The notes under the pieces are model-generated. The model saw only the letters and a program-made list of their open reading frames with translations. It was not told where the DNA came from and did no database searches. This document shows, one piece after another, positions 45,953 to 49,466 of a DNA stretch of 49,466 nt. Source of the stretch: Chlorobiaceae bacterium (lineage in GTDB: Bacteria > Bacteroidota > Chlorobiia > Chlorobiales > Chlorobiaceae); contig JAAXXL010000014.1 in NCBI GenBank assembly GCA_013334485.1, positions 1 through 49,466 of the forward strand, in the 5' to 3' direction. Made by a program: the position numbers and the translations under genes. Each line of letters begins with the position of its first letter. The first letter of the stretch is position 1.

Positions 45953-46198
45953 TAAAGAGACAATCGAGATAGTCGAGCACGTCCCGGAACCTCAGCAGCA
46001 TCCATCAACTTTCGCACCGTACCTCCGCCATCCGAAACATTCTCACCGGCAAAAAGCTCCTCCCCACCACGAAGAACAACGCCCATATCAATGCCCCCAC
46101 CACACCTGCATCACACTTAGAGATACTATCTTTTTTGACGCTTGCACTTTTTTGTTGTTTCGGCTATTTTTATACTCAATAATAAAATTAGCCGCAAG
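45953..46198. other. Gap before the second DUF4143 ATPase gene; possible GC-rich gene fragment
   Basis: On the minus strand 46086-45952 encodes 44 residues (MGVVLRGGEELFAG, then GGGTVRKLMDAAE) with strong GC bias and a stop formed at the MITE edge. It could be the C-terminus of an interrupted gene. No homologue is recognised. Confidence 0.25.
46161..46194. promoter_or_regulatory. Inverted repeat at the start of the second DUF4143 ATPase gene
   Basis: CGGCTATTTTTAT (46161-46173) pairs with ATAAAATTAGCCG (46182-46194), one mismatch, ending 4 bases before the ATG. Same position relative to the gene as the 3731-3775 palindrome, but a different sequence. Confidence 0.55.
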
Positions 46199-47419
46199 AT
46201 GCCTTATAATACAAGAACACTTGAACGTTTTTTTCTGGAAGCGAGTCAACAATTCCCCGTCATGCTGCTGACCGGACCTCGCCAAACCGGAAAAACAACG
46301 TTCATGCGACACCTTGCAGGAGAAGAGCGAACGTATGTCACTCTTGACGACCCGATGCTCCGGGCACTCGCCAGAGATGAGCCTGCGCTGTTCCTGCAAC
46401 GCTTTACCTCACCGGTTCTCATCGACGAAATCCAATATGCTCCCCAGCTCCTGCCATACATTAAAATGGCGGTGGACAACGAACCGAAAGCTGGAAAATT
46501 CTGGCTCACCGGTTCACAGCAATTCCATTTGATGAAGGGTGTCACTGAATCGCTCGCCGGTCGTATCGGGGTGGTCAACCTGCTTGGATTCTCGCAGAGA
46601 GAGCTTTTGGGCACTCCTTCTGCAGAACCGTTTCTGCCGGTTCCGGAAATCATAAAACAACGAGCACAAAGCCGGCAATTGCTTCTGCCGGAACTCTACC
46701 GGAAAATCTGGCTCGGATCGTTTCCCGCTCTTCATCAGGAGAATCCTGCCGATCATGACCTGTTCTACAGTTCATACGTCCAGACCTATCTGCAACGTGA
46801 TGTGCGGGATCTGGCCAATGTCGGCGACGAAAGCGCATTTCTGAGATTTCTTCGCTCCTGTGCAGCACGAACCGGCCAGATGCTCAATATTCTGGACCTT
46901 TGCCGCCAGAGCGACATCAACCATGCAACAGGAAAACGATGGCTCTCGATTCTCGAAAACTCAGGCATCGTCTACCTGCTCGAACCGTGGCACACCAATA
47001 TCAACAAAAGAGTGGTGAAAACTCCAAAACTGTACTTCCTCGATACAGGACTTGCAGCCTGGCTGACCGAGTGGACCTCCCCCGAAACGCTGGAAGCGGG
47101 AGCAATGTCAGGAGCCATTCTTGAAAGCTGGGTGGTATCGGAGATCATCAAAAGCTGGTGGCATAACGGCAAGCGTGCCCCAATCTATTACTATCGCGAC
47201 AAGGATGCCAAAGAGGTCGATCTGCTCATTCATCAGAACGGCACACTCTTCCCTGTCGAAATAAAAAAATCGGCAACTCCGGGAAAAGATGCCATTCGCC
47301 ATTTCCAGGTGCTTCAAACCCTGAAACAACAAATCGGACAGGGATGCATCATCACGCTTGCCCCCATGTATCTCCCGATTACATCAACCACTGATAACGT
47401 ACCTACTGGAATGCTGTAA
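46199..47419 (+). CDS. AAA ATPase of the AAA_14/DUF4143 family, second copy
   Basis: A 406-residue protein with Walker A GPRQTGKTT, Walker B VLIDEIQYAP, sensor-1 WLTGSQQF and the SLAGR arginine motif. The C-terminal DUF4143 part has VVKTPKLYFLDTG and a PD-(D/E)XK-like VDLLI...FPVEIKKS. It is only distantly similar to the protein at 3780, so it is not a recent duplicate. The ATG at 46199 follows an inverted repeat. Its 3' end overlaps a truncated toxin gene on the other strand (47403-47474), which suggests it arrived by insertion there. Cellular role unknown. Confidence 0.9.
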   Translation: MPYNTRTLERFFLEASQQFPVMLLTGPRQTGKTTFMRHLAGEERTYVTLDDPMLRALARDEPALFLQRFTSPVLIDEIQYAPQLLPYIKMAVDNEPKAGKFWLTGSQQFHLMKGVTESLAGRIGVVNLLGFSQRELLGTPSAEPFLPVPEIIKQRAQSRQLLLPELYRKIWLGSFPALHQENPADHDLFYSSYVQTYLQRDVRDLANVGDESAFLRFLRSCAARTGQMLNILDLCRQSDINHATGKRWLSILENSGIVYLLEPWHTNINKRVVKTPKLYFLDTGLAAWLTEWTSPETLEAGAMSGAILESWVVSEIIKSWWHNGKRAPIYYYRDKDAKEVDLLIHQNGTLFPVEIKKSATPGKDAIRHFQVLQTLKQQIGQGCIITLAPMYLPITSTTDNVPTGML

Positions 47420-47474
47420 CCCCGGGATCAGGAATACAGTATTCCAACCAGCAAGAAGAGTCCACAACATTCAT
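47403..47474 (-). pseudogene. N-terminal fragment of a PIN-domain (VapC) toxin
   Basis: The ATG at 47474 overlaps the antitoxin stop (ATGA), the normal VapBC junction. Residues MNVVDSSCWLEY are a standard PIN start with the first catalytic Asp. After 23 residues it stops, inside the 3' end of the opposite ATPase gene. The rest of the toxin is missing. Confidence 0.7.
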
Positions 47475-47779
47475 ATTCTCTCTTCTTCTCTTTTGATCTC
47501 AGTGTTAATAACCTTAAAGATACCTTTGAGCGATTTCATTGGTTGGATTGGTACAAGTTCAATCCGACTGCCATAGGTGATGATCTCCATCGTCGTTCCG
47601 GCACAAAGGCCAATATCTTCTCTAATTTCTTTTGGTAAGCGATCAACAAAAAGTCGCTCCGCAATATCGAGTCATTTTAGCCTGATTCATTAACGTCCGC
47701 ACTTGTTTTACTTCGGCATCAATTCTTGTGGAGCGCTTATAATAACCTGAAACTTACTTGAAACAGTGACAGTATTCAT
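47471..47779 (-). pseudogene. AbrB-type antitoxin interrupted by a RelB/DinJ-like fragment
   Basis: The N-terminus MNTVTVSSKFQVII (from 47779) and the later part LPKEIREDIGLCAGTTMEII to 47471 are two halves of one AbrB/MazE-fold antitoxin. They are separated by about 95 bases whose other frame reads RSTRIDAEVKQVRTLMNQAK, then, after a frameshift, an AERLF segment. That resembles the RelB/DinJ ribbon-helix-helix N-terminus. So the antitoxin has been split by a piece of a different antitoxin and is probably inactive. Confidence 0.6.
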
Positions 47780-47851
47780 CAATTATCTGCATGGGTTACT
47801 ATAATACGATTGCTATAGGTCATTAAAAATTCTATTGAGCACGCAGGGTTA

Positions 47852-47943
47852 GTTTAACGTTTGAGTTAAGCCGCGTGGCTACGCGACGCGGGAAAACTGG
47901 AAACAGATGGCGTAGCCATGTCGGCTTGAACGAAAGGTTAGGG
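47852..47943 (-). other. attC recombination site of an integron gene cassette (92 bp)
   Basis: On the minus strand it reads CCCTAAC, then CTTTCGTTCAAGCCGAC, then an imperfect palindrome around GGCTACGC/GCGTAGCC, then GCGGCTTAACTCAAACG and GTTAAAC. Both ends match the classic attC pattern, as in the aadA1 cassette (from memory). CCCTAAC is the complement of the GTTAGGG that opens the cassette at 48543, a known property of complete cassettes. Confidence 0.9.
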
Positions 47944-48542
47944 AACGACAGGGCGAACAAGTGTCAGGTGTCATAGTGGTGCTGCCAATAGAGCTCACTC
48001 ACTCTCTTCCAAAGGGCGTTGACATTGGGCCAGTCCATGGCGCGGTTGTAACGCTTGAATTTCACGCTGCCCGGCACTGGTTCCCAGAGTGCCTTGTTCC
48101 TTGTGTCGAGCGTATCCTCCCACTCAGTTCTGTCCTTAGGAATGGGATAGCGCCCAGACCACCGAATCGCTGCCGTCAGTATCCGAAGCAAATCCTCGTC
48201 GTCGACAGAGACCGGAAAGCCAACGTAAATCGCGAGGTCGACCAACCTGTGATGTGTGAGAACCTTCTTCCCTTGCGCTACAGCAACGGCCTTAAGGAGG
48301 AGTTCGAGTGACATCCCCCAGAGCATCTCGTAAACGTGGTTGCCAGCAATGCCAATGCTGAAACCAGAGCCGAGGTTAAACTCGTTCGCCACAGTCGCAG
48401 CGAAGTGAGGATCCGCGGCCGCGCGGAGTGCCGCTGCGGACCCGCGAAGATCGCTGGCGCAATTGTACCAGTACAGAGAAGTGGCCTGTGCACGGTCGAA
48501 TCGGTCGTTCTTGGGCATGAGTGGTTCCGGAAAGTTCCCTAA
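47858..48542 (-). mobile_element. Integron gene cassette (about 685 bp)
   Basis: It is bounded by the core sites G^TTAGGG at 48543 and G^TTAAAC at 47858. It contains one gene in the orientation attC requires, with a 24-base leader and 20 bases between stop and attC. Its base composition is richer in GC than the flanks. A single cassette beside an integrase stub suggests a decayed integron. Confidence 0.85.
47964..48518 (-). CDS. Cassette-encoded protein, HEPN-like
   Basis: A 184-residue soluble protein. The core YEMLWGMSLELLLKAVAV then THHRLVDLA looks like the helical HEPN-type arrangement (helix with Glu, then a downstream HxxL helix). HEPN proteins are often RNases or toxin partners, but the catalytic RxxxxH motif is not obvious. 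It starts at the ATG at 48518, inside the cassette; an earlier TTG would lie outside the core site. Many integron cassettes encode such unknown proteins, often toxin-antitoxin or stress functions. Confidence 0.7.
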   Translation of the reverse strand: MPKNDRFDRAQATSLYWYNCASDLRGSAAALRAAADPHFAATVANEFNLGSGFSIGIAGNHVYEMLWGMSLELLLKAVAVAQGKKVLTHHRLVDLAIYVGFPVSVDDEDLLRILTAAIRWSGRYPIPKDRTEWEDTLDTRNKALWEPVPGSVKFKRYNRAMDWPNVNALWKRVSELYWQHHYDT

Positions 48543-48543
48543 C

Positions 48544-48708
48544 AATAATTAGATGGATCCGCCTATACTGCGGATTTTTGACTTGTAGTACATATAAGAC
48601 GTCATTTTCAAACCCAAATAAATAGCTCTAACCGTTTTTTATAAATAAGTTAAAACTGTTATTGCTTTTTATTTCAGCGTTTTATATGGATCGGCATAAA
48701 AACGATGC
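48544..48708. other. Probable attI region between integrase stub and cassette
   Basis: AT-rich, no ORF. The first cassette is joined at CTAATTATTG^TTAGGG, so an integrase attachment site should lie here. I cannot mark its binding sites by eye. Confidence 0.4.
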
Positions 48709-48813
48709 TTACAAGCCGTCAACAGGGCTTTTTTCTTCAGGACCACCTTTGTTTAAAACTTGTGCATAAACCATTGTAGCACTTACATCTTTGTGCCCCA
48801 AAAACCAGATCGT
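48709..48813 (-). pseudogene. C-terminal remnant of an integron integrase
   Basis: The minus strand reads FLGHKDVSATMVYAQVLNKG, then SPVDGL and a stop. The LGHKDV...TxxxY motif with its His and catalytic Tyr, then VLNxGG...SP, is the signature end of IntI tyrosine recombinases. Upstream the frame is broken and the body of the gene is absent. It is on the same strand as the cassette, the orientation of the so-called reverse integrons. Confidence 0.75.
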
Positions 48814-48984: not shown

Positions 48985-49466
48985 TCACTCACCCATCGCC
49001 TCACTTATCCGCTCTCTTGCAAACTGGCTGAGACGGGCTATGCCGAGATTTCGGGCCAGTTCAACCGGATTGCCATTCGTTGCAAGCAATTTATCAATTG
49101 CCCTGATCTCTTCCGTGCAGATATATTCTACCTTGCTCATTTCATCATCGCGGTTTTTCCATCGGGCTGGGGCGTGACGCTCCTCAAACCGCTCTCTTGG
49201 CCAGAAGAAGAGCCCTACCTTTTCCCTGCTATGACATTGACGGCGTTTGGCGATGGCGAGTACAATGTCCTGGATTTGATTTCCGGCCCGCTTGAATCCA
49301 TGGAAACGGGCAATCCTCCTGAAGAGGACCTCTTCGTGGATCGGGCCTTCCTGCTTTATGACGTGATCGATCATTTCAGTCAAACGAGAAGCGTACTCCT
49401 CTGTGTAGAAAAGATCGGGTTCAGGGCTGAATCGTTCAATATCGAGCTGAGCAAGTTCATAGGTGC
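48985..49466 (-). CDS. DUF3320 C-terminus of a large helicase, 5' end beyond the window
   Basis: About 160 residues of a longer protein, open to the window edge. FYTEEYASRLTEMIDHVI, GPIHEEVLFRRIARFHGFKRAG and the region following are typical of DUF3320, the C-terminal domain of large superfamily 1 helicases that also have DUF4011 and a Vsr-like nuclease. Helicases of that make-up (called Hhe in defence surveys) protect against phage. The stop at 48985 is followed by the integron remnant. Confidence 0.8.
   Translation of the reverse strand, partial: TYELAQLDIERFSPEPDLFYTEEYASRLTEMIDHVIKQEGPIHEEVLFRRIARFHGFKRAGNQIQDIVLAIAKRRQCHSREKVGLFFWPRERFEERHAPARWKNRDDEMSKVEYICTEEIRAIDKLLATNGNPVELARNLGIARLSQFARERISEAMGE

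Follow-up and report, generated by a model that had tools for sequence, protein, structure and literature searches.

A gene cassette at an attI site retaining a remnant of the integron integrase gene in Chlorobiaceae, and related attI sites dispersed across the genus

The stretch of DNA analysed here, referred to as the window, comprises 49,466 nucleotides (contig JAAXXL010000014.1 of the Chlorobiaceae bacterium assembly GCA_013334485.1), and the elements of interest follow one another on its minus strand: the end of a gene with a DUF3320 domain, a remnant of the integron integrase gene intI, an attI site, a gene cassette with its attC, a broken toxin-antitoxin pair and, on the opposite strand, a DUF4143 ATPase gene. 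The DUF3320-containing gene is represented by its 3' part (48985..49464, minus strand; Pfam DUF3320, E 1.1e-20) and is cut by the contig end. The intI remnant (48709..48801, minus strand) consists of 31 codons that correspond in frame to positions 285-315 of TIGR02249 (E 1.4e-4) and finish in LGHKDVSATMVYAQVLNKGGPEEKSPVDGL followed by a stop codon, and the attI region (48537..48708, minus strand) was delimited by its homology to the attI that adjoins an intact intI on another contig of the same genome, C91. Within this region, a putative cassette promoter, Pc (TTGAAA-N18-TACAAG; 48582..48611, minus strand), is placed by the position of the family consensus, and the attI core, ATCCGCAGTATAGGCGGATCCATCTAATTATTG^TT (48541..48575, minus strand), by the core pattern and the aligned sites; the crossover falls between 48543 (G) and 48542 (T), and this G^TT coincides exactly with the start of the cassette. 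The locus has an attI, as judged by the homology with C91 and by the crossover signature, and its intI in cis is the 31-codon remnant only, which places it outside the complete integrons; with a single attC in the window, it also lies outside the CALIN class (two or more attC, no IntI nearby). The intI remnant and the attI directly upstream, and the decayed toxin-antitoxin pair after the attC, were absent from the sequence-only reading in which the cassette had been proposed, and the real interest of the locus, an integrase-less attI bearing a cassette together with its many relatives, lies outside the coordinates which that reading covered.

The coordinates (47852-48543), ends and orientation given in that reading for a complete cassette proved to be correct: as inserted, from the G^TT crossover to the end of the attC, the cassette measures 690 bp (47853..48542, minus strand) and begins with TTAGGG at 48542. 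Its attC (47852..47943, minus strand), an aadA-like site located by folding, structural scan and covariance model, spans 92 bp and displays both of the simple-site ends that had been reported, CCCTAAC (47943) and GTTAAAC (47852), which constitute the R'' and R' boxes with their YAAC and GTTR cores. The terminal CCCTAAC and the opening GTTAGGG are exact reverse complements, again as described, in agreement with what a circularised cassette predicts, and in the circular form the two are complementary at 7 of 7 positions. A covariance model was derived from 11 attCs of class 1 resistance cassettes (arr-2, ereA2, cmlA5, an IMP-8-associated site, an aac(6')-Ib site, an orf of the IMP-45 array, catB3, aadA16, dfrA27, dfrA14 and dfrA1), which were chosen because the attCs beside non-Chlorobi IntI were too few to serve as training sites. 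In the 49-kb window this model returned a single match, on the minus strand (32.5 bits, E 1.7e-6; in its alignment the training sites had their loops shortened, and bit scores therefore differ from those of IntegronFinder), and the poor model score that had been named beforehand as grounds for doubt did not occur. The bottom strand of the attC, which is the plus strand of the window, folds at -21.3 kcal/mol (z -4.9, all shuffles being worse), which bears out the strong palindrome noticed earlier, and at -25.7 kcal/mol (z -5.6) when the ends are closed as in the circle. The extrahelical bases, the absence of which would likewise have been a reason for doubt, are present as one T and one G bulging from the same arm, 6 bp apart, and this spacing is that of the aadA16 and catB3 attCs. 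In the structural scan the site scored 16.2, within the range of class 1 attCs (about 9.8 to 16.4), and no other site of the window reached 10, the background being three hits of at least 10 and none of at least 12 over 297 kb of shuffled sequence. An Rfam search returned nothing of note, and BLAST searches with the attC revealed no second copy in its own genome and nothing useful among plasmids or in E. coli. The element is confirmed as a genuine integron gene cassette with a classic attC.

The enclosed gene has, as had been stated, the correct orientation within the cassette: an ORF of 184 amino acids (47964..48518, minus strand) runs from 48518 to 47964, and its ATG stands about 25 nt past the crossover, as in promoterless cassettes. 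Its product is possibly HEPN-like, the match to PF05168 (HEPN) being below the cut-off (16.3 against 22 bits), and a single-sequence structure model was of too low confidence for use (pLDDT 44). PADLOC, NCBIfam and PDB searches gave no match to the protein, and no viral relatives were found. The distant relatives detected are plasmid-borne and weak (29-41% identity; Alteromonas and Azospirillum), and 296 genomes of the phylum yielded one weak match; this scarcity in the phylum, together with the plasmid relatives, fits an imported cassette. The GC content of the cassette is 56%, versus 47% for the window.

Immediately after the attC, a VapB(AbrB)/VapC-like toxin-antitoxin remnant starts at the G^TT (47438..47851, minus strand); its antitoxin gene is interrupted and its toxin gene is gone where the element meets the ATPase gene, and the element may represent a second, decayed cassette. 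In relatives, the VapBC-like element follows different GTT contexts. The interruption is a MITE-like insertion of about 102 bp (47637..47740, no strand assigned) inside the antitoxin gene, supported by an empty site in 6 relatives and by dispersed copies. The insertion has TA on both sides and its ends read TAAGCG; many genomes of the genus contain copies related to it, and the VapB/AbrB antitoxin gene is uninterrupted in L292-L296 and L179. The locus is bounded by the DUF4143/AAA_14 ATPase gene (46142..47419, plus strand; Pfam), homologues of which occur near other attI copies.

The genome that contains the window encodes a single full IntI, on contig C91 (3981-4922, minus strand; 467 bits), which carries complete integrase domains; after it, in the same orientation, come an attI and an array encoding, among other products, a TIR-containing protein and one that is Mrr-like. 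This IntI shares 98% identity with the IntI of an uncultured Chlorobiaceae MAG, which upholds the attribution of the DNA to a green sulfur bacterium. The platform in the window shows the layout of C91, the intI end and then attI, and the attI regions are 77% identical over 262 bp, in an alignment that takes in the intI end; the divergence of 23% over this aligned region counts against the reading preferred below.

Related attI sites are widespread in the genus. The intI-attI stretch of the window, used as query, matched 52 of 61 genus genomes, many of them in multiple copies, and the attI core, searched for as a 35-base pattern in which as many as 3 mismatches were allowed, turned up 112 times across 45 of 65 genus genomes (mostly drafts or MAGs), with no occurrence of the reversed pattern in the same 65. 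Outside the genus, a few genomes of a single sister genus proved to have the core, and 12 genomes representing other families of the order all lacked it. A full IntI is present in 12 of the 65 genomes, besides one truncated match, and 34 genomes have attI cores and lack a full IntI; the 12 IntI-positive genomes hold 44 cores versus 68 in the other 53 (one-sided p 3e-4, relatedness being ignored). In an alignment of 116 attI sites, the conserved stretch begins at about -55 and reaches G^TT, so that it exceeds the search pattern, and it is followed by TTAGG and then by almost no information past +6; since the pattern itself selects conservation between -32 and +2, the evidence resides in the outer part and in the position of the drop only. 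The putative promoter consensus, TTG(A/T)AA-N18-TRYAAT, falls inside this conserved stretch. By tblastn, 85 of 118 collected attI sites show no trace of intI upstream (a class that includes a few decayed remnants, as tblastn overlooks some short ones seen in the DNA alignment), 25 show part of it and 8 a complete gene, leaving 110 sites without an adjoining full intI. Copies stand behind unrelated genes, such as radC, a transaldolase gene and a umuC-like gene. The attI at the radC locus comes in two lengths, a short form of just its last ~57 bp and the long form, depending on the genome (the comparison being of L144, L234, L251 and L273 versus L148, L157, L214 and L261).

Applied to the attI loci, the covariance model located attCs at 66 places, 62 of which follow an attI on the same strand; these 62 belong to 41 sites, 36 of which have no full intI. 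A strict attC scan behind the attIs had found few sites, a shortfall resolved by a relaxed scan and then by the covariance model, and the sites at which an attC was detected are only 41 of 118, the remainder being short contigs, decayed or below the sensitivity of the model. The first-position products behind integrase-less attIs include matches to a Pycsar cyclase with its membrane effector and to the candidate defence families PDC-S35 and PDC-S52 (examples in L214, L148 and L213). In 212 pairs of attI sites the two members have upstream DNA in common, out to at least 360 bp from the crossover, and in 198 of these pairs the downstream 800 bp are unrelated, 91 of the 198 being without a full intI at either site; in the largest group the upstream similarity is partly that of intI itself, a problem from which the radC, transaldolase and other intI-less groups are free. 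For four locus groups, an identity of 0.86-1.0 in the first three bases gives way to one of 0.24-0.36 in the 17 that follow. The members of the window's own group have the same truncated intI and different downstream DNA, which indicates exchange after the truncation.

These observations are probably best explained by integrase-less attI platforms onto which an IntI from another locus loads cassettes in trans, a reading taken from sequence comparison. It is directly supported by the attC, the attI homology, the intI remnant and the dispersal of the attI copies, and also by the attCs that lie downstream of integrase-less attIs on the strand of the attI and by the sequence switch at the crossover; what we infer is that catalysis takes place in trans, that Pc is active and in which order the events occurred in the source genome. 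The platform in the window would be an integron that lost its integrase and kept 31 intI codons, a putative promoter and attI, with one attC-bearing cassette and the remains of the second, cassette-like toxin-antitoxin element also left on it, and it would be one of many dispersed attI copies in the genus, mostly without a complete adjoining intI. A cassette circle (attC CCCTAAC..G/TTAGGG) would enter attI at G^TT through its folded bottom strand, and the C91 IntI, which is the only candidate for action in trans in its own genome, would most likely load and swap the cassettes at the dispersed attIs. The data suggest that one integrase, encoded at another place in the genome, can serve several attI docks that lost, or never had, an integrase of their own. 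The chances are about even that the whole amounts to a distributed integron of green sulfur bacteria, in which one trans-acting integrase would serve several putative-promoter-plus-attI sites, anchored behind various core genes (radC, the transaldolase gene, the umuC-like gene and the DUF3320 gene), with their own exchangeable cassettes, several of them anti-phage-defence-like. Present-day activity is doubtful in many of the attI genomes because no IntI is detectable there, and the exchange of cassettes might instead have depended on homologous recombination or on an IntI that has since disappeared.

The reduction of intI to 31 codons, the breakage of the second element by a MITE and a deletion, and the 34 genomes with attI cores and no full IntI would also suit a fossil, that is, a second integron that decayed here and whose last cassette had entered before the loss of intI, the site being now inactive and simply inherited; pseudogenes of intI are common in integrons (PMC2426708). 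This is nevertheless rather unlikely, since sites with a common truncated intI differ in their first cassette and switch exactly at the crossover, the attI core stays conserved where intI is gone, and IntI-positive genomes are the richer in attI cores (with lineage ignored). Slightly less probable again, and compatible with loading in trans, is the spread of the copies by a separate attI-carrying mobile element, with cassette traffic as a secondary matter: the short (about 57 bp) and long attI forms at the same radC locus suggest some other dispersal process, and the positions behind unrelated genes also speak for it, whereas the graded intI truncations in many copies suggest decayed integron copies. 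Insertion of the cassette by IntI at a random secondary (attG-type) site has precedents in known off-target integration (PMC10127599) and in the attG sites discussed in PMC12444791, and is very improbable here, being contradicted by the 262-bp attI homologue with the identical crossover immediately upstream. A chance palindrome or ordinary intergenic repeat in place of an attC has nothing in its favour and hardly any probability left, as it is contradicted by the attC model, the fold, the extrahelical bases and the attI context.

An integron is usually described as having one integrase and one attI. Among known systems, the atypical structure of Treponema, in which intI and cassettes run in the same direction, belongs to an IntI clade that includes Chlorobium phaeobacteroides (PMC3607928), and C91 resembles these sedentary chromosomal integrons in its IntI family, in the attI at the 3' end of intI and in the direction of the cassettes; the platform in the window differs from them in having 31 intI codons only, and many other copies have none. 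CALINs, clusters of attCs without IntI, occur at conserved loci in Xanthomonas (PMC12444791), and the loci described here are similar in that their cassettes have no neighbouring integrase, occupy conserved chromosomal places and are in principle mobilisable in trans, but unlike CALINs each is headed by an attI and a putative promoter, and the window has a single attC. CALIN searches ignore attI, a site with little description beyond class 1 (PMC9024848). The attC itself is like those of aadA and catB type in class 1 integrons in its R and L boxes, extrahelical bases, spacing and orientation, and differs in a longer variable loop, the cassette gene being unrelated to known resistance genes.

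The suggestion that cassettes are rarely described in Chlorobi carries little weight, since integrons have been reported there since the survey of Boucher et al., as cited in PMC2426708, and IntegronFinder reports complete integrons in Chlorobi (PMC9024848). In the open-access literature, no report of dispersed, solo, orphan, multiple or additional attI was found, and 'attI-like' led only to an off-target study; Chlorobi integrons and CALINs are thus already known, and dispersed attI platforms are, provisionally and as far as that literature goes, apparently new. Should dispersed attIs indeed be loaded in trans, several loci could simultaneously have first-position, promoter-proximal expression, and tools that require intI or attC clusters would overlook such sites. 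Orthologous sites whose upstream part stays fixed and whose downstream part switches would form a natural record of cassette exchange, and the use of an integrase-less attI in trans becomes a directly testable question.

Two further observations concern the attI copies and their surroundings. Genes or fragments of the DUF4143 ATPase recur beside them, sometimes on both sides (the window, L140, L162 and L298), and a cassette starting TGTTTATATA..ATGGAAGTTTAC is repeated at different attI sites (L152:5860, L169:6899, L246:1561, L268 and L279).
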